Assembly: GCF_018860825.1 (NCBI RefSeq)
Contig: NZ_JAHKPZ010000038.1
Location: 124,001 to 188,000 of the forward strand
From: Lacinutrix sp. C3R15
GTDB taxonomy: Bacteria > Bacteroidota > Bacteroidia > Flavobacteriales > Flavobacteriaceae
DNA length: 64,000 nt
Direction: 5' to 3'
Positions 50,470-63,914 of this stretch are shown piece by piece. Both the position numbers and the translations under genes were made by a program. Positions within the stretch are counted from its first letter, which is position 1. Every line of letters begins with the position of its first letter. Below the pieces are notes generated by a model. That model worked only from the letters and a program-made list of their open reading frames with translations. It was not told the DNA's origin and ran no database searches.

Positions 50470-51489
50470 TTATAGTGCAGATTTAAACTGCTCTAAAAAT
50501 CGCACATCATTTTCACTTAACAAGCGAATATCGCTAATTTGGTTAAGCAGCATGGCAATACGATCTATTCCCATTCCGAAAGCAAAACCTGAATATTCTT
50601 TAGAATCGATACCACAATTTTCTAAAACGTTAGGGTCTACCATACCACAACCCATAATTTCTAACCAACCTGTTCCTTTGGTGATTTTATAATCGGTTTC
50701 TGTTTCTAGTCCCCAATATACATCTACCTCAGCACTTGGTTCTGTAAATGGAAAGTAAGAAGGACGTAAACGAATTTTAGATTTACCGAACATTTCTGTT
50801 GTAAAGTATTGCAGTGTTTGCTTTAGGTCTGCAAAACTAACATCTTTGTCTATATACAAACCTTCTACCTGGTGAAAGAAACAATGTGAACGTGCAGAAA
50901 TTGCTTCGTTTCTGTATACACGACCTGGAGAAATGGTTCTAATTGGTGGTTTATTGTTTTCCATATAACGTACTTGCACAGAACTGGTGTGTGTACGTAG
51001 TAAAATATCTGGGTCTGTTTGTATAAAAAAAGTATCCTGCATGTCTCTTGCTGGATGGTATTCTGGCAAGTTTAATGCTGTAAAGTTGTGCCAATCATCT
51101 TCTATTTCTGGACCTTCACTAACGTTAAAACCTATACGAGAAAAGATATCAATAATTTCGTTTTTTACAATAGATATTGGGTGTCTTGCTCCTATTTCTA
51201 TAGGCTCACCTGGACGTGATAAATCTCCGTAAACTCCATTTTCTTCTTCTTTGCTTTCTAACTCTTCTCTTAAGGCATTTACCTTTTCTTCAGCAGTTTT
51301 TTTAAGCTTATTAATGGTTTGACCAAATTCTTTTTTCTGGTCGTTTGCTACATTTTTAAACTCTGCAAAAAAGTCGTTTAACAATCCTTTTTTTCCTAAG
51401 TATTTAATTCTGAATGCTTCAACCTCTTCTTTAGATTGTGCTTTAAATGCTTCTGCTTCTGCTATAAGTTCTTTTATCTTGTCTATCAT
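50470..51489 (-). CDS. pheS: Phenylalanyl-tRNA synthetase alpha subunit
   Basis: 339 aa, typical. The N-terminal coiled-coil (1-85) binds tRNA. The catalytic core has HPISIVKNEIIDIFSRIGFNVSEGPEIEDDWHNF, class II motif 2 GRVYRNEAISARSHCFFHQVEG, IRLRPSYFPFTEPSAEVDV and motif 3 FAFGMGIDRIAMLL. Charges tRNA-Phe with PheT, which is not in the window. Own promoter and terminator. Confidence 0.97.
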   Translation of the reverse strand: MIDKIKELIAEAEAFKAQSKEEVEAFRIKYLGKKGLLNDFFAEFKNVANDQKKEFGQTINKLKKTAEEKVNALREELESKEEENGVYGDLSRPGEPIEIGARHPISIVKNEIIDIFSRIGFNVSEGPEIEDDWHNFTALNLPEYHPARDMQDTFFIQTDPDILLRTHTSSVQVRYMENNKPPIRTISPGRVYRNEAISARSHCFFHQVEGLYIDKDVSFADLKQTLQYFTTEMFGKSKIRLRPSYFPFTEPSAEVDVYWGLETETDYKITKGTGWLEIMGCGMVDPNVLENCGIDSKEYSGFAFGMGIDRIAMLLNQISDIRLLSENDVRFLEQFKSAL

Positions 51490-51508
51490 GGTATGTATAA
51501 ATAGGTGG

Positions 51509-51516
51509 CAAATTTA
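51509..51516 (-). promoter_or_regulatory. -7 promoter element of pheS
   Basis: Minus strand TAAATTTG, perfect TAnnTTTG, 19 nt from the ATG; TTTG 25 nt further upstream. Confidence 0.5.
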
Positions 51517-51630
51517 AATAAAATATCGGCATTACGTATTGCAAACAACGAACTAATATTTAAAAAAAGAAGAAGATTACCATAGCAAATAAAATTTTTG
51601 CTTGGTAATACCATAAGTTGGTTGTGTTTT

Positions 51631-51706
51631 GCGTTAGCGATTGCAGCATTGTTGGAGCTCATCTTTGATAGCGACTGCGAAAAGCGCGACCCTTGTGGTA
51701 ACGCCC
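51631..51706. repeat. Intergenic element with GCGTTA...AACGCCC ends (copy 2)
   Basis: GCGTTA (51631-51636) to TAACGCCC (51699-51706), with matching terminal inverted repeats and inner GC-rich GCGATTGCAG / GCGACTGCGA halves. Clearly GC-richer than flanks. Ends match the element at 24457-24622. It lies directly after the stop of the 118-aa gene. Confidence 0.55.
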
Positions 51707-51709
51707 TTA

Positions 51710-52066
51710 TTAGTCTATAAATTCTGTTTCTACAAAGTAGTTTACAATGGCTTCTTTCATTAAAATGCTTTGTTCTCCTGCTTTTAAGTGTGGTAATGTT
51801 GCTTTGGCTTTATAATGTGGCCATCCATCTTCATCAACAAAGTCAAACTCATAATAACCATAAGGCGTAAGTACTTTGCAAATTGCAATGTGCATGAGGT
51901 CTAGTTTTTGATCTTTTTTAAAGGTTCTGTTTAACTGCCCTAGTTCTTGCACACCAATTAGGTAGATTATTGCATCTAAATCTAGTGTGTCTCCATCTGC
52001 AAATTGGTTGGATAGTTTTTGAACTACCAAATCCCAACGTTCTTTTAATTCTTGATCTCTTGACAT
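51710..52066 (-). CDS. Conserved hypothetical cytoplasmic protein
   Basis: 118 aa, hydrophilic, no signal peptide. A helical N-terminal half (MSRDQELKERWDLVVQKLSNQF, AIIYLIGVQELGQLNRTFKKDQKLDLMHIAICKVL) and a short C-terminal part (YGYYEFDFVDEDGWPHYKAKATLPHLKAGEQSILMKEAIVNYFVETEF). No family recognised; widespread in flavobacteria by impression. Monocistronic with its own promoter. Confidence 0.75.
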   Translation of the reverse strand: MSRDQELKERWDLVVQKLSNQFADGDTLDLDAIIYLIGVQELGQLNRTFKKDQKLDLMHIAICKVLTPYGYYEFDFVDEDGWPHYKAKATLPHLKAGEQSILMKEAIVNYFVETEFID

Positions 52067-52125
52067 ATTCCCTTGAAAGTATTCCCTATGTTTTGGGATG
52101 TATTTAGGTTATTTTAAATAAAAGC

Positions 52126-52133
52126 CAAAGTTA
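52126..52133 (-). promoter_or_regulatory. -7 promoter element of the 118-aa gene
   Basis: Minus strand TAACTTTG, perfect TAnnTTTG, 59 nt upstream of the ATG. Confidence 0.45.
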
Positions 52134-52197
52134 CTAAACCTGTGTGTTACTTCATTACATCTCTACTTAAAAAAAGGAGAGAAGTTTTGTTATTTAC

Positions 52198-52205
52198 TAT
52201 ATTTG
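52198..52205 (+). promoter_or_regulatory. -7 promoter element of the cvpA-like gene
   Basis: TATATTTG, perfect TAnnTTTG, 17 nt before ATG 52223. This supports that start over the longer form. Confidence 0.5.
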
Positions 52206-52222
52206 AAAAAATTGTAAGTTTT

Positions 52223-52750
52223 ATGAGCGTTTTAGATATAATTTTAGGTGCATTACTCCTTTTTGGGCTGGTTAGAGGTTTTATGAAAGGGCTTTTTGTT
52301 GAAGTTGCTTCACTTGTAGCCTTAGTTGCTGGTGTTTATGGCGCTATACATTTTAGCGGTTTTGCTGCAGAATTTTTAGATAGTAGAGTTGGTTGGGAAG
52401 AAAAATATGTGAATATTCTTGCTTTTGCCATCACCTTTGTAGTTATTATATTAGTAATATCACTAGCAGGAAAAGCATTAACTAAACTGGCTGATTTTGC
52501 TGCTTTAGGTATTATTAATAAGTTATTAGGTGGTGTTTTTGGTGCCTTAAAAATTGGTTTAATTTTAAGTGTAATTCTTGTTGTTTTTAGTAGAATGAAT
52601 AATGCTATACCTTTTGTTGGCGAAGAAGATTTAAAGGATTCTATTTTATACAATCCGGTAAAATCACTTTCACCAATGATTTTTCCGAGTATTATTAAAG
52701 CAGAAGAGCAGGAAGAAAATGTAACACCTGAAGCGGAAACGGAAGCTTAA
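52223..52750 (+). CDS. CvpA family membrane protein
   Basis: About 175 aa from ATG 52223 (MSVLDIILGALLLFGLVRGFMKGLFVEVASL). The longer start at 52142 adds a charged leader and precedes the promoter. Four hydrophobic helices, with the CvpA signature GxxRGxxKGxxxE and GALKIGLILSVILVVFSRMNNAI. CvpA proteins affect colicin V export, envelope stability and purine-linked phenotypes. The last bases overlap the stop of the convergent reductase gene. Confidence 0.88.
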   Translation: MSVLDIILGALLLFGLVRGFMKGLFVEVASLVALVAGVYGAIHFSGFAAEFLDSRVGWEEKYVNILAFAITFVVIILVISLAGKALTKLADFAALGIINKLLGGVFGALKIGLILSVILVVFSRMNNAIPFVGEEDLKDSILYNPVKSLSPMIFPSIIKAEEQEENVTPEAETEA

Positions 52751-54930
52751 TAACAATCTGTTTTTATCTGTGTTTTAAAAGCAGATAATGGTTGGTTTAT
52801 GTGTTGTGTGGTAATTGTATTTAAAATTGCTACTACCTCTTTTTGCATAGCTAACGAGCCACAAACCATAATAACACCTCTATTTTTTAAGGTTTCTGCT
52901 ATTTGCAAAGCATCACGTTTTAAAAGAGATTGCACATATATTTTTGGTTCTTCTTGCGAAAATGCCAAATGTAAAGTACTTAATTGGTTTTTAGTTTGTG
53001 CTTCTTTTATTGCAGCACTATACAAGCTAAACGAAGTATTTTGTCTTAAACCATAATACAAATGCGTTTCTATATTTTTAGTATTTTGGTCTAGCATACC
53101 TAAAAAAGGAGCAATTCCTGTTCCGTTGGCAATTAGAATAACTTTTGATGCTTTTTTAGGAAAGTGAAAGCCGGTATTTTTTACAATTCGTGCTTTAAAA
53201 CTATCGTCTTTATTTAAAGTATTTAAAAACCCAGAACCTAATCCGTTTTCATGAAGCTTGACACTTAGTTGCAATTTTTGGTTTACTTTACCTATAGAAT
53301 ACAAACGCTCTCTATAATCGTTTTTTGGGTAAATTGCCAATAAATCTCCCGATGTGAATGTATTGGTATTTGGCTTTAATGTGATTAAAAACGTATTGTC
53401 TGGATGGTCTTCTGCTTTTGTTTTATTTACAACAGTAAATGAATTGCTTAATCGTGGTTTTACTGCTAGTTTTTCTTTAGAAATAGATATAGGAAGCTTA
53501 TGGTTATTATTCCAAAGGGTTACCCATTCTTCAAATGCGGTTATAGATTTATCGTTGATGGTAAAAACAGATAATTCTTGGGTAAACTGATGCTGCATTT
53601 GTGCATCAACATCTATAGCAAATTTGCAAAAATCTAGATATGCTAATGAGCCAAAACCTACAACAGAATAGCTTATTTCCTGAGTTTGTTTTACAGTTTT
53701 TAATTGCTCAAAAAAGGTATTAGCATTGGTTGGTGCTTCGCCTTCACCATAGGTAGAAGTCATTATAATAAAATGTTCTGCTTTACTAAAAGTAGTATAA
53801 TTATTAAGTTCTGTAATGTAAACCGATTGGTCTGCTTTTAATAGTTGTTCTTGTAATTGTATTGCAAATGGTAATGTATTCCCGTTTTCTGAACCTACTA
53901 AAATAACATAAGTACAAGCGTCTTTTTTGTACTTGTTTTTAAGTTTAGCTTTTCTGCGCTTTAATGTCATTGCAAAACCAGAATAGATAAAAAACAAAAT
54001 ATTTGCGGTTGCTATTGCTAATACTAAAGACCATAAAACACTACCTTTTCCTGTATGAAGGTTGAGACTTAAACCAGAAAACATAGTAATTAAAGGAGTT
54101 TTTATTTCGCTTAAAATTTCACCATTAAATTGATTTACTACTATTTCTCTGTCTTGAAGAGAAATGGTAAAGTAGTCTTCTACATCTTCTGAAAAAGGAA
54201 ATTCTATACTTTTTACCTGTGAAAGCCTAGTATTTTTAAAAACTGGAATCTCAAGAATATTACGTTTTGGTGTTTTTGAAAGGTTTTCAAAATCTATATC
54301 ATGAGCAATGGTATTTTTTGGAAGCAGATCAAACTTTTCTAACGACAAATAAACTCCTGTAACAGTAAGGATAAGGATTGGAATTAACGATAGCCTGCCT
54401 AAAACCACATGCCAATATTGGTTAAAGTTCTCGTTTACTATTTTAGAAAAAAACCTTTTAAAAGAACCTTGTCTTTTTAGTATTAAAACCGTTCCTGAAA
54501 TAGTAATTAAGAATAATAAAAACGAGCATAAACCAACAAAGAAACGCCCTGTGCTTTTTAAAAATAAAGACCTATGAAAATTAGTAACCCATTTAAAAAA
54601 CTTAGACACTTCTATTTTATCCCCTATAAATAGACCTGTTTCAGGGTTTATATATCCATCTAAACTTTCGCCATCCTTAGTAATAACAGAAGCTAAAACA
54701 AAATGGTTTGCATCTACTTGCACATCTAAAACCTCTGGGTATTCTGCTTTTAAATTAGAAATGGTTTCTGCAAGGGTAATGCTTTCAAAATTTGAAACTT
54801 TGTAAGGTTGTAACTGCTCTGAAATTGGCTGAAATGCCAAAATAATTCCAGTTACAGAAGCTAATAAAATAAAAACAAAAGAAGATACAGCAAGTGTTAA
54901 GTGGCTGTATCTCCAGATGGAAATGGTCAT
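52747..54930 (-). CDS. PepSY-membrane / flavodoxin / FNR fusion reductase
   Basis: About 727 aa from ATG 54930 (MTISIWRYSHLTLAVSSFVFI); a longer TTG start adds 12 residues. The PepSY_TM part (1-340) has four helices with conserved His in IWRYSHL, NFHRSLFLKSTGRFFVG, QYWHVVLGRLSLI and SLNLHTGKGSVLWSL. A flavodoxin domain follows (about 355-490; VILVGSENGNTLPFAIQL, STYGEGEAPTNANTF), then an FNR domain (about 505-725; RLYSIGK, ANGTGIAPFLGML, VMVCGSLAMQKEV). Electrons should pass from NAD(P)H via FAD and FMN to membrane heme and the periplasm. It is the last gene of the DUF6607 operon. Ferric or heme reduction is inferred. Confidence 0.88.
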   Translation of the reverse strand: MTISIWRYSHLTLAVSSFVFILLASVTGIILAFQPISEQLQPYKVSNFESITLAETISNLKAEYPEVLDVQVDANHFVLASVITKDGESLDGYINPETGLFIGDKIEVSKFFKWVTNFHRSLFLKSTGRFFVGLCSFLLFLITISGTVLILKRQGSFKRFFSKIVNENFNQYWHVVLGRLSLIPILILTVTGVYLSLEKFDLLPKNTIAHDIDFENLSKTPKRNILEIPVFKNTRLSQVKSIEFPFSEDVEDYFTISLQDREIVVNQFNGEILSEIKTPLITMFSGLSLNLHTGKGSVLWSLVLAIATANILFFIYSGFAMTLKRRKAKLKNKYKKDACTYVILVGSENGNTLPFAIQLQEQLLKADQSVYITELNNYTTFSKAEHFIIMTSTYGEGEAPTNANTFFEQLKTVKQTQEISYSVVGFGSLAYLDFCKFAIDVDAQMQHQFTQELSVFTINDKSITAFEEWVTLWNNNHKLPISISKEKLAVKPRLSNSFTVVNKTKAEDHPDNTFLITLKPNTNTFTSGDLLAIYPKNDYRERLYSIGKVNQKLQLSVKLHENGLGSGFLNTLNKDDSFKARIVKNTGFHFPKKASKVILIANGTGIAPFLGMLDQNTKNIETHLYYGLRQNTSFSLYSAAIKEAQTKNQLSTLHLAFSQEEPKIYVQSLLKRDALQIAETLKNRGVIMVCGSLAMQKEVVAILNTITTQHINQPLSAFKTQIKTDCY

Positions 54931-55006
54931 GCTTTTTAAGTTTATAAAACTTCTTGACAAAGTCAATACAGAGAGTAGACTAAGCGTGCGAAGTAATACG
55001 TTGGTT

Positions 55007-55492
55007 TTAGTTAGGCATTAAACGAACGTAACGTATAAAACCTGTACCTTCATTTTTACTTTTTACACTTTCTGATGTTAGTTCAAACTCTACATCTTTG
55101 GTGTAATATTCTTGATCTTCTACTGCAGTTTCAAAACGAATGCTGTAACCAGCATCAATTTTAGAATCTTCAATATCTATAACATTTATACTTCTTGCTC
55201 CTCCAGCAATTGTTGCTCCTGTAATAGCGTCAATATTGGTTCTTTTTTTACCGTAGAATGTCCACCATTGTGAAATATCATGATACCACTCATCATCATC
55301 TCCCTGTACATATAAGGTTTTTTCATATTCGCCTTCTGGGTTTATAAGAGAAATAACTACATAGGCACCTTCGCCAGAGTAATTAATCATTTGAATCATA
55401 CATTTATAAGATGTAGATGCTGCTTTTGTTGTAAAGGATAATGTTGCAATTACAAGAACTCCTAATACTAAAAGTGTTTTTAATGTTTTCAT
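55007..55492 (-). CDS. Periplasmic DUF2271 protein with probable flavinylation motif
   Basis: 161 aa. Signal peptide MKTLKTLLVLGVLVIATLSFTTKAAS. The DUF2271 body shows MIQMINYSGEGAYVVISLINPEGEYEKTLYV, WYHDISQWW and the C-terminal FIRYVRLMP. Residues 88-94 read DAITGAT, which fits the ApbE target motif Dxx(S/T)GA(T/S) with Thr94 as the FMN acceptor. It sits just upstream of the PepSY reductase, its likely electron donor. From memory DUF2271 has been reported among domains linked to extracytosolic flavinylation; the modification here is inferred. Confidence 0.82.
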   Translation of the reverse strand: MKTLKTLLVLGVLVIATLSFTTKAASTSYKCMIQMINYSGEGAYVVISLINPEGEYEKTLYVQGDDDEWYHDISQWWTFYGKKRTNIDAITGATIAGGARSINVIDIEDSKIDAGYSIRFETAVEDQEYYTKDVEFELTSESVKSKNEGTGFIRYVRLMPN

Positions 55493-55502
55493 TAGTTACT
55501 GT

Positions 55503-56981
55503 TTATTTTAAAAAATCTAAATTGATTTTATGTGCTTTTAAAATTTCGTTTTCATTTGCTAAATCGTAAGCTGTTTCATCAAAATCTGTTGTTGCTTCTA
55601 AATTAGCTCCTATTGAAATTAAATACTTTAAAATTTCTGCATTTTTAGCTTGTAGAGCTGCTAAATGTAAAGCAGTGTTCCCTTCGTTATTTTTAGCATT
55701 TACATTTATGTTAAACTGCGATAAAAACTTTAAAATATTTTTGTCATTTTTAGCTACAGCCAAATGGTATAAGGTATTACCGTTTTCTTGTGTTTGGGTG
55801 ATATCTAATCCGTTTTCTTTTAAAAGATCTACCTTTTGCTTAAAAGCATCTGCTTTTTTACCAGAAAACGATTCTATTAAATAAGCTGTTAAATTGTTTT
55901 TATTAGCATCTAAAACAGTAATATCTGCATTGTTTTCTAATAAAAATTTAACGACTTCAGGACTGTTATTTGCTACAGCTAAAGCTAGAGCAGACTCTCC
56001 TTTTTTATTAACCTGATTTATATTTTTTAAGTGCTTAGATAATAGTTTAACTATTTCTATATTGTTACGGCTTGCTGCGTTTAAAAATGGTGTATTTGCG
56101 TTGTAGTCTTCTGTATTAACATCTAAGCCTTTTTCTATTAAATAATTAATTAGCGCTATATCTTTACTTCTTGAAGCTACAATATGTAATGGAGTTTCGC
56201 CTTTTATTACTGCGTTTTTAGGATTTAAACCAACATTTTCTAGGTATTTATAAAATTCTAATGTATTGGTTTTACCTCTGGTTCCTTGAGCCGCAAATAC
56301 AAAAGCATTATCTGTTCCTTGAACTCCTTTTTCTAGTAATTTATTTAATAAATCTACATTTCCTGTTTTGGCAACATAGTTAAAGATGCCATTACCATTG
56401 GCGTCTACACTTTTTACATCTAATCCTTTTGAAGTGAAATAATTTATTAGCGTAAAGTCTTTATCATAAGGTGCTGCTAATAATAATGCATTAGCGCCTT
56501 TTGGAGTAACATCTGTTTTTATATTTGCTCCGTTTGCAATACAAAGGTCATATACTTTTGTGTTTTGTTGCCCAGAACCAGCAGCAAAATTTAAAATAGT
56601 ATTTCCTTTATCATCTGTAATATCTGTTTTTGCGCCTTTGCTTAAAAGGTATTCCATGAAAGCAACATTTCCTTTATAAGCAGCCCAAAAAATATACGTT
56701 CTACCATCATGTGTTAGCTTATTAACGTCATTTCCTTCTTTAGATTGAATGTATTTAAGAGTTTCAAGAGATACATCTTGTAAAATTGCAGAAGCTACAG
56801 CATCAAAGTTATTGCTATTGGCTTCAGCAATGTTATTTCCTTCTTTAATTTTTGCTTCAACAGTTTCTATACTTGGATTTGATTTCCAGAAATCTCTGTT
56901 TAAAAATACGTTTTGTTGTGCAAAGCTAGCTATGCTAAAAGTTAAAACGAGTACTATTATGATTGTTTTTAAATTTTTCAT
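55503..56981 (-). CDS. Secreted ankyrin-repeat protein
   Basis: 492 aa. Signal peptide MKNLKTIIIVLVLTFSIASFAQ, so it is periplasmic or surface rather than cytosolic. About 11 ankyrin repeats (DGRTYIFWAAYKGNVAFMEYLLSKGAKTD, GETPLHIVASRSKDIALINYLIEKGLDVN, GNTALHLAALQAKNAEILKYLISIGANLE). The start is 1 nt from the DUF6607 stop and 10 nt precede the DUF2271 start. Periplasmic ankyrin proteins occur with catalase or iron systems; here a scaffold for the DUF2271/PepSY pair is guesswork. Confidence 0.87.
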   Translation of the reverse strand: MKNLKTIIIVLVLTFSIASFAQQNVFLNRDFWKSNPSIETVEAKIKEGNNIAEANSNNFDAVASAILQDVSLETLKYIQSKEGNDVNKLTHDGRTYIFWAAYKGNVAFMEYLLSKGAKTDITDDKGNTILNFAAGSGQQNTKVYDLCIANGANIKTDVTPKGANALLLAAPYDKDFTLINYFTSKGLDVKSVDANGNGIFNYVAKTGNVDLLNKLLEKGVQGTDNAFVFAAQGTRGKTNTLEFYKYLENVGLNPKNAVIKGETPLHIVASRSKDIALINYLIEKGLDVNTEDYNANTPFLNAASRNNIEIVKLLSKHLKNINQVNKKGESALALAVANNSPEVVKFLLENNADITVLDANKNNLTAYLIESFSGKKADAFKQKVDLLKENGLDITQTQENGNTLYHLAVAKNDKNILKFLSQFNINVNAKNNEGNTALHLAALQAKNAEILKYLISIGANLEATTDFDETAYDLANENEILKAHKINLDFLK

Positions 56982-56982
56982 T

Positions 56983-57888
56983 TTATTGTTTTACAAACGA
57001 TTCTATTAATGGATTAATTTCTTCTGCGGTTTGGTATTTTTCTTTATCAAACAAATACTTAAACAAAACTTTATTATCTACTTTTTCTTTTAACACCAAA
57101 TCTTTATTTCTTGCAAAAATAGCATTCCATTTTGCACGTACCAAAGCCCATTTGTCTTTTTCTTTTGCCCAATATTCTTGTGCTGCAATACACTTACTAT
57201 CTTCTACTTTTTTGTACACATTATTTCCTTTTTCTTCAGCTACAAGTTCATAAACACCTTCTTCACTAAGTATTTTTTCGTTGTCTTGATCGTGAATCCA
57301 TCCTGTTGCTATAATTTCATGTCTATTTGTTCTACCTGTAACATTATAATCACTACGTTTGGTATATTCTCTTCTTGGTAAAGGTGCATTTGTTGTATTT
57401 TCCCAATAGTGTTTTCCGTCAACATGTACCCAAGTTGCAGAACCTTCGTAACGAGGACTATCATCTACCTGAAATACCTTTTGAGACCACTGCCCTTTAA
57501 CTTGTCTCTTATCTAATTTTGTGTATTTCCATTCGTTATTTCTAAAATACTCATACAAATCAGTATTTTCATATTCCCAATCTTGTCTCCAATGTTTCAC
57601 TATATATGGTCGCTCTTTAGTACCAACAATTAATAAATGTTGCATAGAGATTTTATCATTACTGTCTTCTACCAATTGCACCCACTCTAATCCTTTATCA
57701 TGCTTTGTTTTAGAAGCAACGTATGTAGAGTCTTCAGAATACTGAAATGTTTCTGCAAAATTAAAGCTTACTTCATAACAACCACACATTGCTTTAATGG
57801 CTTTTTCATCCTGTTTTTTCTTGTTTTGCGCATTTACATTAAGAGTAAATGTTATTAAAAAGAGGAATACTACTGGTAAATGTTTCAT
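56983..57888 (-). CDS. DUF6607-family secreted protein
   Basis: 301 aa. Signal peptide MKHLPVVFLFLITFTLNVNA. Features: EKAIKAMCGCYEVSFNFAETF near the N-terminus, VKHWRQDWEYENTDLYEYFRNNEWKY, QVKGQWSQKVFQVDDSPRYEG, WENTTNAPLPRREYTKRSDYNVTGRTNRHEI. I recognise this as the DUF6607 pattern, commonly next to TonB receptors. Function unknown; export and location in the iron locus are the main clues. First gene of the leftward operon. Confidence 0.8.
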   Translation of the reverse strand: MKHLPVVFLFLITFTLNVNAQNKKKQDEKAIKAMCGCYEVSFNFAETFQYSEDSTYVASKTKHDKGLEWVQLVEDSNDKISMQHLLIVGTKERPYIVKHWRQDWEYENTDLYEYFRNNEWKYTKLDKRQVKGQWSQKVFQVDDSPRYEGSATWVHVDGKHYWENTTNAPLPRREYTKRSDYNVTGRTNRHEIIATGWIHDQDNEKILSEEGVYELVAEEKGNNVYKKVEDSKCIAAQEYWAKEKDKWALVRAKWNAIFARNKDLVLKEKVDNKVLFKYLFDKEKYQTAEEINPLIESFVKQ

Positions 57889-57938
57889 TATTAAAGTTTT
57901 ATTGTTTGAGATTTAAAAAAAATTAAAATATCTTATTC

Positions 57939-57961
57939 TTATTTAGAATGAATTAAAATAA
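57939..57961. promoter_or_regulatory. Fur-box-like imperfect palindrome
   Basis: Left half TTATTTAGAAT is a typical flavobacterial iron-box half; the right half matches its reverse complement at about 8 of 11 positions. It lies in the divergent promoter region of the DUF6607 and receptor operons. Confidence 0.4.
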
Positions 57962-57962
57962 G

Positions 57963-57989
57963 ATTTTATATTTGCCACAAATATAAAAT
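57963..57989. promoter_or_regulatory. 27-bp perfect palindrome carrying two facing -7 boxes
   Basis: Left arm ATTTTATATTTG (57963-57974), centre CCA, then its exact reverse complement (57978-57989). Each arm includes TATATTTG, so both strands carry a perfect TAnnTTTG element: one for the receptor (ATG 57993), one pointing to the DUF6607 gene (ATG 57888). It could be both promoter and operator. Confidence 0.6.
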
Positions 57990-57992
57990 AGA

Positions 57993-60137
57993 ATGAGTCT
58001 AAATAAAAATAATATTAAACTTTATTTTTTACTTTTTTTTAGTTATGCTATTAGTGCTCAAGAAAAAGAAAGAGACACGACCACGATTGAAAAACTAGAT
58101 GAAGTAATTGTAGTTGGAGAAAGCAATGTAATGTCTGTGAGTAAAAAGTTATTTACTGTTGGGACTATTAAAAGAAAAGACATTGAAAATGTTGCAGGAA
58201 ATAATTTAGCAGATGTTTTACAAAACAATTTAAACATAACAATCAACCCAGATGCCTCAGATGGGCGTTCTACCATAAGCTTATTTGGTTTAGATGGTCA
58301 ATATGTAAAAATTTTAGTAGATGGTATTCCAATTATAAGTGATAATGGCGTAGGAAACAACATTGATATTACACAATTAAATATTGATGACGTAGAACGT
58401 ATAGAAATTGTAGAAGGTTCTATGGGTGTATTATATGGTGATAATGCTGTTGCAGGAGTTGTTAATATAATTACCAAAAGAGGTTTAAAAGATAATGGTT
58501 GGCAACTGCAATTATCTCTGCAAGAAGAAACAGTAGGAAACGAATTTGAATTATTTGACAAAGGAAGACATATTCAAAATTTTAGAGCTACCAACCAAGT
58601 AAATGAAAAACTATCCTACTCTATTGGAGCTTCAAGAAATGATTTTGCTGGTTTTTATAATGGTTATAAAGGTGAGAATTATGTAAATATTGAAGATGGA
58701 GTAGTTGTAAATGATAGTTTAAGAGGTACCGAATGGAATCCTAAAGAACAAATAACCGTTTCTGGAAATATGGATGTAAACCTTGGAAAACACAATGTAT
58801 TTTACAAGCTTCAATATTTTAATGAAGACTTAAAAATATACAATAGAGCTGTTAATGGTAGATATGAAAACGGTACTCTTAATCCTACTGCAGTTGATGA
58901 AAACTACAAAACAGATAGATGGGTAAATAACGTAAATGTTTCTGGACCATTACATGGAGCTACCAACTATAATTTTTCGTTTTCTTATCAAAATCAAAAA
59001 AGAAACTATAAAGAATATGTATATAACATATTAGAAAAGCGAACACAATCTGTAAATACAGATACAGTAAGCCAATCTAGTGAAGTGTGGTATTCTAAAG
59101 CGTTTGTAAATAACATCGTTTCAAAATCTAATTTTTTCAACCTTCAACTAGGTTATGAATTTACCAATCAAAAAGGTTTTGATGCCATTGCTACAGGAAA
59201 TTATTCTAGTGACGTTGTAGAAAACACAATTACGAATTACGAATTATTTGGAATTACAGAATTTCAACTATTAAAAAAATTATCTGTACATCCTGGCGTT
59301 CGTTTTACACATAGCTCACAATTTAATAACCACCTTATTTGGTCCTTATCCTCTACTTATGATTTTTCAGAAAAGCTAAAACTGAAAGCAGTGGTTGGTT
59401 CTGCATATAGAGCACCTAATTTTGAAGAACTTTTTTACTCTTTTGTAGATACAAACCACAATGTACAAGGAAATCCAGATTTACAACCAGAAGATGGTGT
59501 TTCTGTTTTTGTAAACCTAAAAAACAATTATAGAATAGCTAAAGAAGGGTTTTTAAATCAAAAACTCACATTCTTTTTTATAGACCTTAAGGATGCTATA
59601 GCTAGTATAACTACAGAAGATAATGAGGGTACCATTTTGTATACACAAGATAATATTGACTATAGTAAAAGATTAGGTTTTAATTTAGAAAACAATTTTA
59701 TCTATAAAAATTGGAATATAGGTATAGGTGCTACGTATTTAGGAGTAACTAGTACAATTAATGAATCTATAGATAATGATTCAGACTATTTATGGAGCTT
59801 AAATCTACAAGCATCTTTAGCGTATTCTATAGAAAAATGGAATACTACCATTAACAGTCAATTAAAACATACAGGTAAAACACAAGGTGTATTTACTGAT
59901 ACAAATGGCGAATTATTTATTGGTGAAACCGATGCATTTACCTGGTTAAACGCCTCGATAAGAACAGATATTACACCAAGAATAAACGCAACATTAGGGG
60001 CTAGAAACCTATTAGATGTTGTAAACATAAATACTAATGCTTCTGCTGGAGCGCATACTGCAGCAACATCAAGTTCAAGACTAATTGGTAATGGCCGATC
60101 TTATTTTTTAAAACTATCCTATAATTTAAATTTTTAA
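57993..60137 (+). CDS. TonB-dependent receptor of the heme/iron locus
   Basis: 714 aa. Signal peptide to about residue 22 (SYAISAQ). The plug (about 35-155) shows DVLQNNLNITINPDASDGRSTISLFGLDGQYVKILVDGIP and ERIEIVEGSMGVLYGDNAVAGVVNIITK. The barrel has VVGSAYRAPNFEELFYSF (FRAP-like) and QGNPDLQPEDGV (NPNL-like), boxes found in heme receptors though not exclusive to them. The C-terminus is aromatic (LSYNLNF). It is co-transcribed with the HmuY-like lipoprotein 11 nt downstream and divergent from DUF6607. Confidence 0.88.
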   Translation: MSLNKNNIKLYFLLFFSYAISAQEKERDTTTIEKLDEVIVVGESNVMSVSKKLFTVGTIKRKDIENVAGNNLADVLQNNLNITINPDASDGRSTISLFGLDGQYVKILVDGIPIISDNGVGNNIDITQLNIDDVERIEIVEGSMGVLYGDNAVAGVVNIITKRGLKDNGWQLQLSLQEETVGNEFELFDKGRHIQNFRATNQVNEKLSYSIGASRNDFAGFYNGYKGENYVNIEDGVVVNDSLRGTEWNPKEQITVSGNMDVNLGKHNVFYKLQYFNEDLKIYNRAVNGRYENGTLNPTAVDENYKTDRWVNNVNVSGPLHGATNYNFSFSYQNQKRNYKEYVYNILEKRTQSVNTDTVSQSSEVWYSKAFVNNIVSKSNFFNLQLGYEFTNQKGFDAIATGNYSSDVVENTITNYELFGITEFQLLKKLSVHPGVRFTHSSQFNNHLIWSLSSTYDFSEKLKLKAVVGSAYRAPNFEELFYSFVDTNHNVQGNPDLQPEDGVSVFVNLKNNYRIAKEGFLNQKLTFFFIDLKDAIASITTEDNEGTILYTQDNIDYSKRLGFNLENNFIYKNWNIGIGATYLGVTSTINESIDNDSDYLWSLNLQASLAYSIEKWNTTINSQLKHTGKTQGVFTDTNGELFIGETDAFTWLNASIRTDITPRINATLGARNLLDVVNINTNASAGAHTAATSSSRLIGNGRSYFLKLSYNLNF

Positions 60138-60148
60138 AACTAATAATT

Positions 60149-61336
60149 ATGACAAACAAATTTTTAACACTAATATTAATAGCTACCACTGTACTTATTA
60201 CAAGTTGTAGTAGTGATGACAACGGAGGAAGCTCAGAAGAAATAACTACACCAGCTTCTACTGGAGGAATTATAGATCCTGATGTAGGTGGATTTAATCA
60301 ACCAAACCGTGTTTTTGTAGACTTAAGTACAGGTAATCAAGTAGCTGTAACTCGTAATGCATGGGAAATAGCTGTTTATAACGGTTCGGAAAACAGAGTT
60401 TTTATTAACAATACTTTATTAGTTTCTGCTGCAGAACTAGATGGTATTACTGATATTACAGCAGTAACAGAAACAACAGTATTAACCTCTCCACTAACCT
60501 TAAACGCACTAGATCAAACCTTTACTCCAACAACAGTTACTGTTAATACTGTTGCTGAATTAATAGAAGGTTTACCAGTAAATTACTACCAATATGGCGA
60601 TTTAGACGCTGGTATTTCTTTTACAGATAGTAAAGAAGGAGAGTTATCTGGTACTGCTTTTGAAGAAATTTCAACAACAGATAGTGAGAACAATGTATAT
60701 ATTGTAAACCTAGGAAACGAAATACCAACAACAAATAGCGGTACCATAAACACTACTGGAGACGCTAGAGGATACCTAAAAGTTAGGGTATTAACAGATG
60801 GTAACACATACACCATTCAGTATGCTGCATTAAGTAATACAACAGATTATTCAGAACTTACTGTAACTAAAGATAGTAACTACAACCTAACTTATGTAAG
60901 CTTAACAGATGAACAAGTTGCTACTTTAGAGCCAACTTCTTCTAATTGGGATATTGACTTTGGTGGTGTATTTTCTTATTACGGTTTACAAGGTACATTA
61001 GCAGCAGGTTTAACCTATTCAGATTATACGTTACACAATACACTTGGAGGTGTTGGTTTATATGAAGTTACTGTTGAAGATGATACAACACCTAGTTACA
61101 CTAACTTTACATATGCAGATGTTACCGAAGCAAGTTTTGTTTATAATGATCGTGCTATTATAGGAAGTGGTTGGAGAAGTGTTGACTACATAACTGGAGA
61201 AACCACTGTAACAGAAGACAGATACTATATTGTAAAAGATACTGACAATAATTACTACAAATTAAGATTCACTGCAGTAGAAAGCGAAAATGGAGAAAGA
61301 GGTTATCCTCAATTTCAATATGAATTATTACAATAA
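60149..61336 (+). CDS. HmuY-family heme-binding lipoprotein
   Basis: 395 aa. Lipobox MTNKFLTLILIATTVLITSC (Cys20) followed by an acidic Ser/Asp linker (SSDDNGGSSEE). Two HmuY-like halves: RNAWEIAVYNGSENRVFIN...GYLKVRVLTDGNTYTIQYA (about 65-230) and SNWDIDFGGVFSYYGLQGTL...DVTEASFVYND...RYYIVKDTDNNYYKLRFTAV (about 265-390). HmuY in Porphyromonas captures heme from host proteins and passes it to HmuR. Here it should serve the adjacent receptor from the outer-membrane surface. Confidence 0.86.
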   Translation: MTNKFLTLILIATTVLITSCSSDDNGGSSEEITTPASTGGIIDPDVGGFNQPNRVFVDLSTGNQVAVTRNAWEIAVYNGSENRVFINNTLLVSAAELDGITDITAVTETTVLTSPLTLNALDQTFTPTTVTVNTVAELIEGLPVNYYQYGDLDAGISFTDSKEGELSGTAFEEISTTDSENNVYIVNLGNEIPTTNSGTINTTGDARGYLKVRVLTDGNTYTIQYAALSNTTDYSELTVTKDSNYNLTYVSLTDEQVATLEPTSSNWDIDFGGVFSYYGLQGTLAAGLTYSDYTLHNTLGGVGLYEVTVEDDTTPSYTNFTYADVTEASFVYNDRAIIGSGWRSVDYITGETTVTEDRYYIVKDTDNNYYKLRFTAVESENGERGYPQFQYELLQ

Positions 61337-61376
61337 CCTTCGTTTAATATTTTATAATATTAGTCTATTATAAAAC

Positions 61377-61406
61377 AAAAGCCACTCCTTAAAGGGTGGC
61401 TTTTTT
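61377..61406. terminator. Bidirectional terminator between hmuY-like and carbonic anhydrase genes
   Basis: AAAAGCCACTC / GGGTGGCTTTT stem with a T-run on both strands. Confidence 0.75.
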
Positions 61407-61413
61407 ATTCTAA

Positions 61414-62040
61414 TTAATCTAAATGATATATTTCTCTAATATCATTAAGTATGCTTTCAAAGTCTATTTTTAAATCTACTAAATTACCAGTATGAATATC
61501 AAAAACCCAACCATGAACAATTAAACCTCTACCACGTACTGCTTTTTGAATAGCTGCGGTTTTAATAAGGTTAACACATTGTTCTTGTACATTTAGTTCT
61601 ACTAAACGTTCATACTTTTTTTCTTCGCATGTAATAGCATTAAGCTCTTTGTTATGAATACGATATACGTCTCTAATATTACGAAGCCAAGGGTTTAACA
61701 AACCTAAATCTGCAGATTGCATAGCTGCTTTTACACCACCACAACCATAATGACCACATACTACTACGTGGTGTACTTTTAGGTGTGATACCGCATAGTC
61801 TACTACAGACATGGCATTTAAATCTGTACCAATAACCATATTAGCAATATTTCTGTGTATAAAAGCATCACCAGGACCTAAACCCATTAATTCTTCAGCA
61901 GTTACGCGACTATCAGAACAACCAATAAACAGTAATTCTGGATTTTGTCCTTCACCTAATTTATCAAAGTAATCTTTATCCTCTTTTAGTTTGCGCTTGA
62001 TCCAGGCTTTATTGTTTTCAAATACAGTATCTAAATTCAT
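61414..62040 (-). CDS. Beta-class carbonic anhydrase
   Basis: 208 aa. Zinc ligands in LFIGCSDSRV (Cys, Asp-Arg dyad) and VVCGHYGCGGVKAAM (His and Cys). NPWLRNIRDVYRIH and GRGLIVHGWVFDIHTGNLVDL complete the pattern. Interconverts CO2 and bicarbonate in the cytosol. Lies 11 nt after the SulP gene, so it probably supplies or uses bicarbonate moved by it. Confidence 0.95.
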   Translation of the reverse strand: MNLDTVFENNKAWIKRKLKEDKDYFDKLGEGQNPELLFIGCSDSRVTAEELMGLGPGDAFIHRNIANMVIGTDLNAMSVVDYAVSHLKVHHVVVCGHYGCGGVKAAMQSADLGLLNPWLRNIRDVYRIHNKELNAITCEEKKYERLVELNVQEQCVNLIKTAAIQKAVRGRGLIVHGWVFDIHTGNLVDLKIDFESILNDIREIYHLD

Positions 62041-62051
62041 ATTTTATTTTA

Positions 62052-63914
62052 TTAGTACTCGTCTTTCACGTTTTCTTTAATCCACTTAACACAACCATTA
62101 AAGCTTTCAAATATATGTTCTTTAGGAATTAAATCTGGTATAATATCAATCCTTTCCATCATATATTGTGGTTGTTTTAGTAAACCAACAAAAAGCACTG
62201 TAATTTTATTTTTTTGTAATTCAAGAAGAAGATCTTCCATTGCATATAAACCTGTTTGATCCATATATTGCATTCTTCCTAAGCGCAAAATAACTGTTTT
62301 AGCGGTATTAGGAATTTGTAATGATAAAGCTTGAAAATCACTAGTAGAACCAAAAAACAAAGGGCCTTTTAGGTGTTTTATAAAGACTTCTTCTTTAAGG
62401 TTTTCTGGAAACCCAACCTCATCAGACCATACTTCTTCTTTTAATGATTTAACATCTGAACGTTCTGCTGTTAAATCTCCTATTTTTTTCATAAACATTA
62501 ATGAAGCAATAACAAGTCCGATACCAACAGCATAAATTAAATCCCAAAACGTAGAGAGTAATAATACAACAATCATAATTAACACCTCTGAACTTAGTTT
62601 AAATGGTCCTAATTTAATATCTCTAGGTAAACTTGGTATGGCTTTAAGGCCTTTATAATCCATAACTCCAATACCAACAGTAATTAAAATACCTGCTAAT
62701 ACAGCCGCTGGAATTTTAGATGCAACAGGAGCTAAGGCAAGCATAATAACGAGTAGCATGACACCTGCAATCATACCAGACAATTTTGTTTTACCTCCTG
62801 CATTAATGTTTACAACCGTTCTAATAGTTGCTCCTGCACCTGGTATACCACCAAAAATGGCTCCAATACTATTTCCAATACCTTGGCCTATTAGCTCTTT
62901 ATTAGGTTTATGTTTGGTTTTGGTCATATTATCTGCCACCACACTAGTTAATAAAGAATCTATTGCTCCTAAAAGAGATAATGTTAATGCAGTAAATATA
63001 TAAGGCGTAATACTACTTAAGCTAAAACCGGTAATTATTTCTAATTTTGGCATTGGAATTCCGCTAGGAATCTCTGAAATGGGTCTGTAGCCTAAATTAA
63101 ACCCGTAGGCTATACCAGACATTATTACCAGAGCAACTAAAGTACTAGGTATGGTGGTAGTGATTCTTTTAAAGCCATAAATAATAAATATGGTACCTAA
63201 AGCTAAAATAAGCTCTAGCCAATTAATATTTTGTAAGGCTCTTGGTAGTACTTTTAAGGCTCCTATGGTACCAGAAGCATCTTTTGCTGCCAGTGTTTGT
63301 GACTCTTTTAAAATTTGTTCTGGTGTAATTTGATGTGCTCGGTTTATGGTTTCTTTAAAATCTTCAAGCACTAAAATACCCTCACCAGCTTCTTCTTTTA
63401 AAATATTTTCAAGAATAACTTCTTCTGCTTGTGGCTTAAACTGTTCTACAAACTCCTGATCTTCTTTAGGATAGTAACCTATTGACGGCAAAATTTGTGT
63501 TAACAAAATAATAACACCAATAGCAGTCATAAAACCAGAAACCACTGGGTATGGTATATATCTAATATATTTACCAAGACCTAAAAAACCAAGACCTACT
63601 TGTATTAAACCCGCTAATAAGAAAACGGTTAAAATTGCAGGAAGTGCTTTTTCAACACTACCATCATTTGCAGCTACAATTCCAGCAATAACAACCATAC
63701 TAACGGCTGTCATTGGTGCTGTTGGGCCAGAAATTTGTGTTGCTGTACCTCCAAAAAGCGCAGCAAAAAAGCTAATAAAAATGGCTCCATACAGCCCTGC
63801 TTCTGGTCCTAAGCCTGAAGATACACCAAATGCTAAGGCCAATGGCAAGGCAACAATTCCTGCCGTAATACCACCAAAAGCATCCCCTTTGATATTTGAA
63901 AATAAATTTTTCAT
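62052..63914 (-). CDS. SulP family inorganic anion (bicarbonate/sulfate) transporter with STAS domain
   Basis: 620 aa. SulP core: GDAFGGITAGIVALPLALAFGVSSGLGPEAGLYGAIFISFFAALFGG, PMTAVSMVVIAG, GNSIGAIFGGIPGAGATIRTVVNINAGGKTKLSGMIAGV. A C-terminal STAS domain spans about 500-615 (VFIKHLKGPLFFGSTSDFQAL, LGRMQYMDQTGLYAMEDLL). An unusually long hydrophilic loop of about 85 residues (about 145-228) interrupts the membrane part. The carbonic anhydrase partner suggests bicarbonate. Confidence 0.93.
   Translation of the reverse strand: MKNLFSNIKGDAFGGITAGIVALPLALAFGVSSGLGPEAGLYGAIFISFFAALFGGTATQISGPTAPMTAVSMVVIAGIVAANDGSVEKALPAILTVFLLAGLIQVGLGFLGLGKYIRYIPYPVVSGFMTAIGVIILLTQILPSIGYYPKEDQEFVEQFKPQAEEVILENILKEEAGEGILVLEDFKETINRAHQITPEQILKESQTLAAKDASGTIGALKVLPRALQNINWLELILALGTIFIIYGFKRITTTIPSTLVALVIMSGIAYGFNLGYRPISEIPSGIPMPKLEIITGFSLSSITPYIFTALTLSLLGAIDSLLTSVVADNMTKTKHKPNKELIGQGIGNSIGAIFGGIPGAGATIRTVVNINAGGKTKLSGMIAGVMLLVIMLALAPVASKIPAAVLAGILITVGIGVMDYKGLKAIPSLPRDIKLGPFKLSSEVLIMIVVLLLSTFWDLIYAVGIGLVIASLMFMKKIGDLTAERSDVKSLKEEVWSDEVGFPENLKEEVFIKHLKGPLFFGSTSDFQALSLQIPNTAKTVILRLGRMQYMDQTGLYAMEDLLLELQKNKITVLFVGLLKQPQYMMERIDIIPDLIPKEHIFESFNGCVKWIKENVKDEY

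Follow-up and report, generated by a model that had tools for sequence, protein, structure and literature searches.

A RhuH-family haem-uptake locus joined to a predicted PepSY/DUF2271 reductase cassette in Lacinutrix sp. C3R15

Introduction

Two kinds of published gene cluster resemble the locus analysed here, which occupies positions 52747–61336 of a 64,000-nucleotide stretch of Lacinutrix sp. C3R15 (contig NZ_JAHKPZ010000038.1, positions 124,001–188,000; the whole stretch is called the window) and consists of six genes in two divergent operons. One is the haem-uptake locus rhuH/rhuR-rhuA of Riemerella anatipestifer (PMC11967795). Its product RhuH is a haemophore that binds haem with a Kd of 3.4e-11 M, takes it from haemoglobin and is secreted in outer-membrane vesicles; haem extraction was also shown for three RhuH homologues (PMC11967795). 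Like that locus, the window carries a DUF6607 gene with all the named haem contacts, a divergent receptor gene followed by an HmuY-type gene, and a Fur-box-like match between the two operons. Electron-transfer genes, however, are not mentioned in the available part of PMC11967795, and the run of R. anatipestifer genes annotated as Ankyrin, periplasmic protein and nitric oxide synthase is a separate locus, whereas the cassette in the window follows rhuH. Of the statements found in print, the one nearest to the pairing concerns Hfp of Flavobacterium psychrophilum (PMC9331221), where, unlike in the window, a DoxX gene separates the receptor and haemophore genes; that paper lists its other genes in a supplement.

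The other kind of cluster transfers electrons. PepSY-like flavinylation systems (PMC8238504) combine PepSY_TM with DUF2271, sometimes with a TonB receptor; some of their PepSY proteins have an NAD-binding domain, and a link to iron was proposed. DUF2271/PepSY/TonB clusters are linked to iron in PMC12004947 and PMC7190382 too. As far as the available text describes them, these systems often include DUF4198 and apbE, whereas the window has an ankyrin gene, no apbE and a haem head. XusABC of Bacteroides (PMC13142918) follows the same logic of receptor, surface lipoprotein and PepSY reductase, and our survey has XusB-like heads in front of DUF2271 at 10 loci; Xus takes siderophores, however, and the window is without the DUF4374 lipoprotein. 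FoxB (PDB 7abw; PMC11334425) shares with the PepSY protein of the window four membrane histidines for two haems, a likeness of number rather than a residue-by-residue alignment. Unlike FoxB, the window protein carries its PepSY part in one chain with a diflavin NAD(P)H reductase and has a candidate periplasmic flavin carrier as its partner.

An earlier sequence-only reading of the window had proposed a flavin-linked electron pathway coupled to iron or haem uptake and had called the whole chain undescribed. The latter claim stands for the union and falls for the halves: Hfp/Rhu haem loci and DUF2271-PepSY-TonB iron clusters are both in print, and only their union appears undescribed. No paper with the word DUF6607 was found in the open-licence PubMed Central literature, and no description of rhuH beside an ankyrin-DUF2271-PepSY block was found there, supplements being outside the scope of the search. 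The available part of a paper on iron in Elizabethkingia (PMC7221216) gave no match to the cassette gene names, and that of the RhuB paper (PMC10986502) no locus information. The overall interpretation of that reading is partly supported by our analysis. We consider it rather probable that the locus unites a Fur-controlled haem-uptake head (RhuH, RhuR, RhuA) with a general periplasmic reductase cassette that serves whichever outer-membrane head adjoins it.

Materials and methods

Eighty loci were first picked by similarity to the window DUF6607 and are a biased set; 60 of them and the window gave the 61-row DUF6607 alignment and profile. The survey comprised 149 genomes of the family to which the window belongs, nearly one per genus, which were not chosen by similarity to the window. 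Some species occur in both sets, and the alignments of 49 DUF2271 and 54 FMN_bind rows hold near-duplicates. Around each of the 54 DUF6607 loci of the survey, up to 20 kb were annotated with 12 family profiles built on the 80 loci above; for the Lacinutrix genome the window itself was used. Counts per genome are complete for all families, whereas positions of PepSY_TM and ApbE genes come from the matches listed. The open reading frame (ORF) caller is mechanical and chooses non-overlapping ORFs by length; the DUF2271 gene of locus L142, which it missed, was entered by hand from a profile search. The 49 PepSY fusions were hand-picked (open frames of 722–756 aa and the shorter ones of genomes G014 and G084), other PepSY_TM proteins being excluded. 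Fisher tests on co-occurrence ignore relatedness. The query for Fur boxes was the R. anatipestifer box (PMC5609570), and a hit is a sequence match, not binding.

The haem-uptake head

The DUF6607 profile matches a haemophore, PDB 8xjc_A, at E 1.4e-120, with only MHC chains (E of at least 0.26) as further PDB matches; the window protein alone finds the same structure with phmmer (E 1.1e-90) across residues 15–298. In RhuH the haem ligand His96 was tested by mutation, and the propionate contacts Arg143, Tyr144, Arg170, Arg183 and Gln198 were taken from a model (PMC11967795). Hand-counted on the alignment, these six residues correspond to H99, R146, Y147, R173, R186 and Q201 of the window protein, and their columns are invariant in 61/61 rows. 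By these matches DUF6607 is assigned to the RhuH haemophore family and gains a function not visible from its Pfam label; the view of it as a protein of unknown function is ruled out by the matches to 8xjc_A. Haem capture by the family is, by homology to the tested proteins, close to shown, and the suggestion of the sequence-only reading that haem is a likely substrate is supported by the PDB match and the conserved contacts. Judged by homology, DUF6607, the divergent TonB receptor and the HmuY-family lipoprotein form a rhuH/rhuR-rhuA haem locus, because the first of them is RhuH with ligand and propionate contacts invariant.

In 50/54 genomes a relative of the receptor is encoded no more than about 7.5 kb from DUF6607. 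The lipoprotein of the window scores 61.0 bits against Pfam HmuY (cut-off 27), and a profile of such lipoproteins matches the HmuY structure 3h8t at E 5e-7. By its domain it is an HmuY-family protein and a candidate haem binder, not an XusB-type DUF4374 protein; DUF4374-like lipoproteins occur only in other loci.

The predicted reductase cassette

The four membrane histidines of the PepSY_TM/flavodoxin/FNR fusion (residues 10, 119, 174 and 292) are invariant in 31/31 rows and in 15/15 rows of a second alignment, and in a solved PepSY protein four histidines bind two haems (PMC11334425). The best PDB matches of the fusion are NADPH-P450 reductases. Its flavodoxin and FNR parts keep conserved residues that we take to be their signatures. 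The fusion is thus best described as a putative NADPH-to-periplasm transmembrane reductase, NADPH being the presumed donor because the closest solved relatives are NADPH-P450 reductases.

The DUF2271 protein of Amantichitinum ursilacus is flavinylated on the threonine of a [S/T]GA[S/T] motif (PMC8238504). The window protein carries TGAT; among the 49 aligned DUF2271 rows, near-duplicates included, the acceptor threonine is invariant (49/49) and the full motif present in 38. A DUF2271 profile gave nothing convincing in the PDB (CsoZ, E 0.021). We regard the protein as a predicted flavinylated electron carrier. Judged by these parts, namely four invariant PepSY histidines, diflavin-reductase motifs and an invariant flavin-acceptor threonine, the electron chain proposed earlier is supported as a prediction.

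An ankyrin gene stands close to DUF6607 on the same strand in 31/54 genomes, and the ankyrin protein belongs to the cassette about as regularly as its other members do. The clustering of PepSY_TM (PF03929) with a flavinylation substrate (PF10029) is the arrangement by which PepSY-like flavinylation-associated systems are recognised, and ankyrin, DUF2271 and the PepSY/flavodoxin/FNR fusion are classed here, on their domains, as such a PepSY cassette. In 10 of 31 loci with the complete block a DUF6686-type protein is encoded 3' of the cassette (e.g. L145:18697-19053, L150:17063-17419, L010:15234-15587).

Joint occurrence of head and cassette

Among the 149 genomes, DUF6607 was found in 54, DUF2271 above cut-off in 50 and HmuY in 62; among the matches listed, 49 had a PepSY_TM fusion, usually about 730 aa long. 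DUF6607 and DUF2271 share a genome in 38 cases against 18.1 expected. They are also neighbours: no more than 10 kb separate DUF2271 from DUF6607 in 32/54 and HmuY from DUF6607 in 50/54 (45 divergent, 5 on the same strand), and 47 of 52 DUF2271 copies have a PepSY fusion, among the matches listed, within 2 kb. The DUF6607/DUF2271/PepSY/TonB arrangement of the sequence-only reading therefore recurs far above chance, relatedness aside. A complete ankyrin-DUF2271-PepSY block accompanies 31 of the 54 RhuH loci; one has DUF2271 alone, nine have FMN_bind instead and 13 neither. In the biased set of 80 loci the counts were 74 for the receptor, 20 for ankyrin, 18 each for DUF2271 and the fusion, and 41 for FMN_bind.

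A tree of all 54 DUF6607 proteins, in which bootstrap values were not settled, requires 4 changes in presence of the block, 3 in that of FMN_bind and 16 in the type of lipoprotein beside DUF6607 (long HmuY, short HmuY or none). The block thus stays with rhuH, whereas the receptor side is often swapped.

A DoxX-like membrane gene was seen near rhuH in 12 of the 23 loci without a complete block and in none of the 31 with one; five block-less loci inside the block's own clade (L128, L130, L137, L144 and L151) carry it. DoxX and the cassette may be mutually exclusive.

A second head

Of the 52 DUF2271 copies, 20 lie away from DUF6607 and were examined in 20 fetched regions. Ten of them are of another kind, and ten follow genes for a receptor (about 805 aa), a lipoprotein (about 455 aa) and an ankyrin protein, with the fusion next in nine (it is absent in L184). 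One of five such lipoproteins tested matched Pfam DUF4374, below cut-off; a profile of 11, some only 22–34% identical to the first, matches three DUF4374/XusB structures (E 1.6e-15, 7.6e-11 and 2.3e-9). We call these heads XusAB-like. XusABC of Bacteroides, which likewise includes a PepSY protein, steals ferric siderophores (PMC13142918).

In a cassette tree built from ankyrin and fusion at 46 loci, 31 cassettes stand with rhuH, 30 of them with a rhu head and one with both heads, and only 2 changes between rhu and xus heads are needed. Since one cassette accompanies both kinds of head, it more likely reduces Fe(III) chelates in the periplasm generally than haem specifically. A cassette restricted to haem is weakened as a candidate by the XusAB-like heads before 10 of the 52 DUF2271 copies.

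The locus with both heads (L145:9586-19889) is a single run of rhuH, ankyrin, DUF2271, a second TonB receptor, an XusB-like lipoprotein, PepSY/FNR, DUF6686, a small protein and a Fur-family gene.

Promoter and iron response

In R. anatipestifer, rhuH and rhuR-rhuA share a 122-bp two-way promoter with a Fur box (PMC11967795); the divergent promoter of the window measures 104 bp from start codon to start codon. Matches to the query box with at most 3 mismatches occur in the 64-kb window only at the two sites of Table 1, against 0.33 expected, and at least two were found in 7 of 100 shuffles. Such a match is also present in 40 of the 43 homologous divergent promoters, and the other three contain one with 4 mismatches. 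For those 40, matches of equal quality arose in no more than 2.5% of 200 shuffled versions of the stretch concerned and in no more than 4.1% of about 100 pieces drawn at random from its locus. A Fur-type promoter is thereby supported at the level of sequence, and control of the rhuH/rhuRA promoter by Fur and iron may, by homology to tested proteins, be called close to shown in a relative.

Iron limitation raised R. anatipestifer rhuH, rhuR and rhuA transcripts by log2 4.7, 3.8 and 4.5 (PMC5429918). Separate from the rhu locus of that species, B739_0173-0177 encode a receptor, a hypothetical protein, Ankyrin, a predicted periplasmic protein and a nitric oxide synthase, with log2 values of 3.3, 3.6, 2.4, 3.1 and 1.0 in the same data (PMC5429918), and Fur binds the B739_0173 promoter (PMC7976709). 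Their order is that of the XusAB-like loci, and the window fusion protein also matches nitric oxide synthase in the PDB.

A scan of the whole Lacinutrix genome with at most 2 mismatches gave 4 Fur-box sites against 1 with a backward control; two of the 4 have no clear iron link, and 4 sites are too few to define a regulon. One contig (C23, L192:7536-11154) carries a second PepSY_TM protein (373 aa) and a TonB receptor, with a Fur-box-like site 66 bp upstream. On another (C42, L191) a 2-mismatch Fur-box-like site coincides with the start of an AraC-type gene, from which a hemA-like gene diverges; both genes were named by eye.

Flavin carriers and ApbE

In nine of the 54 genomes a short FMN_bind protein is encoded directly behind rhuH in place of the block; the three FMN_bind proteins tested all score above the PF04205 cut-off. 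GAT is kept in 54/54 FMN_bind rows and the full D..[ST]GA[ST] motif in 38, near-duplicates included. As GAT or its threonine is kept in both DUF2271 and FMN_bind, two unrelated proteins with a flavin motif hold the same place.

FMN_bind also occurs with an unassigned membrane-like protein of the family c31, away from or beside rhuH (L033:11387-13712, L036, L041, L117 and L164). The c31 protein, which in L033 has no Pfam match, may be a membrane partner of the FMN_bind carrier. Their outer-membrane-like neighbour matches Porin_O_P in L036, and in L033 a ferritin-like gene, recognised by eye, comes next.

In PepSY-like flavinylation systems apbE frequently, though not obligatorily, lies in the same cluster; it is not at this locus. 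The earlier expectation that the modifying enzyme is encoded elsewhere proved right: the genome has three apbE copies on other contigs (C39, C1 and C4) and none on that of the window (C27). The C1 copy stands behind nqrA-F (named by eye), of which NqrC matches FMN_bind, and the C4 copy among sulfatase-like genes, also named by eye. ApbE was found in 149/149 genomes, and 16 of the 31 block genomes have a single one. Among the matches listed, which cover 11 of these 16, it lies 4–12 kb from an FMN_bind gene in all 11, and in the four cases fetched its neighbours are nqrA-F. If DUF2271 is flavinylated in single-ApbE genomes, the NQR-linked ApbE must therefore do it.

The C39 copy (L193:7036-10119) stands in a row with genes for a thioredoxin-like protein and DUF3570, which looks like a second, separate flavinylation cluster; DUF3570 is another known type of flavinylation substrate (PMC8238504).

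Discussion

The haem-uptake head joined to a general periplasmic reductase, which is the reading we prefer, would work as follows. Under iron limitation, RhuH and the lipoprotein would bind extracellular haem, which the receptor would carry into the periplasm. With NADPH as donor, the fusion would pass electrons by way of FAD and FMN to two b-haems on the four membrane histidines and hand them on to FMN on the DUF2271 threonine; the reduced carrier would in turn reduce imported Fe(III), be it haem iron or iron freed from haem or another chelate, which would then be passed on as Fe(II). What we infer in this scheme is the flavinylation, the electron path, the NADPH donor, the reduction of haem or its iron and the role of the ankyrin protein.

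How flavobacteria take iron from haem once it is past the outer membrane looks open, given how rare three known degrading families are: across the 149 genomes, heme oxygenase was found in 14, CobN (HmuS-type) in 10 and HemS in 3, two of them above cut-off (the match in G042 is below it). The Lacinutrix genome has no match to these three families, the search not having covered HugZ, IsdG-like or EfeB-like degraders. A tested haemophore family joined to a reductase cassette in 31/54 RhuH genomes makes the question testable with one operon. The repeated pairing of the haem and electron halves offers a hypothesis, open to test, for the way in which these bacteria exploit the iron of haem, and the locus hints at one reductase module that haem and siderophore heads have in common. 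We offer only as a tentative proposal that an exchangeable, Fur-controlled cassette might reduce the haem delivered by RhuH/RhuR itself, freeing or moving on its iron in genomes without heme oxygenase, CobN/HmuS or HemS matches, that it might also serve siderophore heads, and that the FMN_bind carrier might do the same job in another clade.

Several explanations compete with a general reductase. The cassette could be specific for haem, reducing ferric haem in the periplasm so as to loosen it from RhuH or RhuA, to allow its onward transport or to help the removal of its iron. The association of 31/46 cassettes in the tree with rhuH, the 32/54 RhuH genomes with DUF2271 within 10 kb and the absence of the three degrading families from the Lacinutrix genome speak for it; the same cassette nevertheless stands behind XusAB-like heads, the head type having changed only twice on its tree, and absence of the degrading families does not go with the cassette. 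We therefore find haem specificity doubtful. Of similar standing in our view, a possibility to be kept in mind rather than one to build on, is that the cassette is a Fur-controlled periplasmic ferric reductase for any iron source that merely shares the rhuH promoter. DUF2271 without rhuH nearby, in 10 XusAB-like and 10 other copies of 52, would fit this, as would PepSY/DUF2271 clusters elsewhere that accompany other iron-responsive receptors (PMC8238504, PMC7190382). Mere sharing of control is harder to reconcile with the 42 of 52 copies that lie beside RhuH (32) or an XusAB-like pair (10), with the receptor and HmuY-type gene near 30 of the 32 RhuH-adjacent copies (L158 and L161 are the exceptions), and with an unrelated flavin carrier in the same position in another clade.

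Two further explanations concern the chemistry. That the DUF2271 protein of this lineage carries no flavin, and only binds a ligand or bridges fusion and receptor, strikes us as improbable: the acceptor threonine, on which the A. ursilacus protein carries its flavin (PMC8238504), is invariant. One ApbE is able to serve several substrates. The absence of apbE from the locus and the single ApbE of 16 cassette genomes, which lies near FMN_bind in the 11 listed and beside nqrA-F in the four fetched, would nevertheless suit an unflavinylated protein, as would the variant motif of some DUF2271 rows mentioned below. Least credible, and in our judgement very unlikely, is a cassette supplying reductant for the repair of oxidised thiols or methionine, or against peroxide stress, around periplasmic haem. 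The membrane parts of PepSY and MsrQ are structurally alike (PMC11334425), and PMC9478572 places a flavobacterial PepSY gene among putative antioxidant functions; no repair enzyme, however, is encoded within the block itself, unlabelled neighbours being unannotated, and the published relatives are controlled by iron and Fur.

A number of observations weigh against the general reductase joined to a haem head. The 13 RhuH genomes with neither cassette nor FMN_bind beside rhuH do without them, so haem uptake needs neither in cis. The cassette may have joined rhuH once, in which case the genome counts are not independent. All three degrading families are missing above cut-off in 24 of 31 cassette genomes and in 17 of 23 others, and this lack of association leads us to reject the idea that the cassette stands in for known haem-degrading enzymes. 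Alignment of 17 HmuY-like lipoproteins (the window and 16 chosen loci) shows no invariant or nearly invariant histidine or methionine; haem ligands are known to vary among HmuY members (PMC11967795). The sole PDB match of the membrane-part profile, FoxB (7abw), is weak (E 0.0055). GET replaces GAT in 11 of the 49 DUF2271 rows, four of which also lack the first [S/T], and 16 of the 54 FMN_bind rows are without the full motif. B739_0176 and B739_0177, finally, are read as DUF2271 and PepSY from names and order only.

Gene calls and chromosomal setting

Gene set, places, strands, close spacing and the DAITGAT motif are as the sequence-only reading had them, according to the translations and to Pfam domain calls that exceed the curated cut-offs for all six genes (Table 1). 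The gaps are 1 bp between DUF6607 and ankyrin, 10 bp between ankyrin and DUF2271 and 11 bp between receptor and HmuY; that between DUF2271 and the fusion is 76 bp from ATG 54930 or 40 bp from TTG 54966, where the mechanical ORF starts. ATG 54930 is more probably the start, because relatives (L127, L129 and L145) open with the same MTISIW stretch. Signal-peptide-like N termini and the lipobox LITSC, both claimed earlier, were recognised by eye.

Table 1. Positions of genes and sequence elements at the locus, in window coordinates.
Feature	Positions	Strand	Evidence
PepSY_TM/flavodoxin/FNR fusion	52747..54930	-	Pfam PF03929, PF00258, PF00175; 727 aa from ATG 54930
DUF2271 periplasmic protein, predicted flavinylated electron carrier	55007..55492	-	PF10029, E 8e-41
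DAITGAT flavinylation-type motif	55211..55231	-	residues 88-94 of DUF2271 protein; translation and alignments
Ankyrin-repeat protein, signal-peptide-like start	55503..56981	-	Pfam Ank families
RhuH-family haemophore (Pfam DUF6607)	56983..57888	-	PF20311; PDB 8xjc_A, E 1.1e-90
Fur-box-like inverted repeat, divergent promoter	57941..57959	+	3 mismatches to R. anatipestifer box
Possible Bacteroidota -7 element (TAnnTTTG), receptor operon	57967..57974	+	consensus match, by eye
Second Fur-box-like match, across receptor start codon	57986..58004	+	box scan
TonB-dependent receptor, RhuR/HfpR position	57993..60137	+	PF07715, PF00593 (plug and barrel)
HmuY-family lipoprotein, RhuA/HfpY position	60149..61336	+	PF14064, E 1.9e-16
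Terminator-like inverted repeat with T run, 3' of HmuY gene	61376..61406	+	by eye

Many loci share one chromosomal site, from SulP/carbonic anhydrase to CvpA/pheS (window 50470-52750 and 61414-63914). At this site the block may be absent, as in L068 and, judged by gene lengths, in L115 and L130; in L171 the block apparently occupies it without rhuH.

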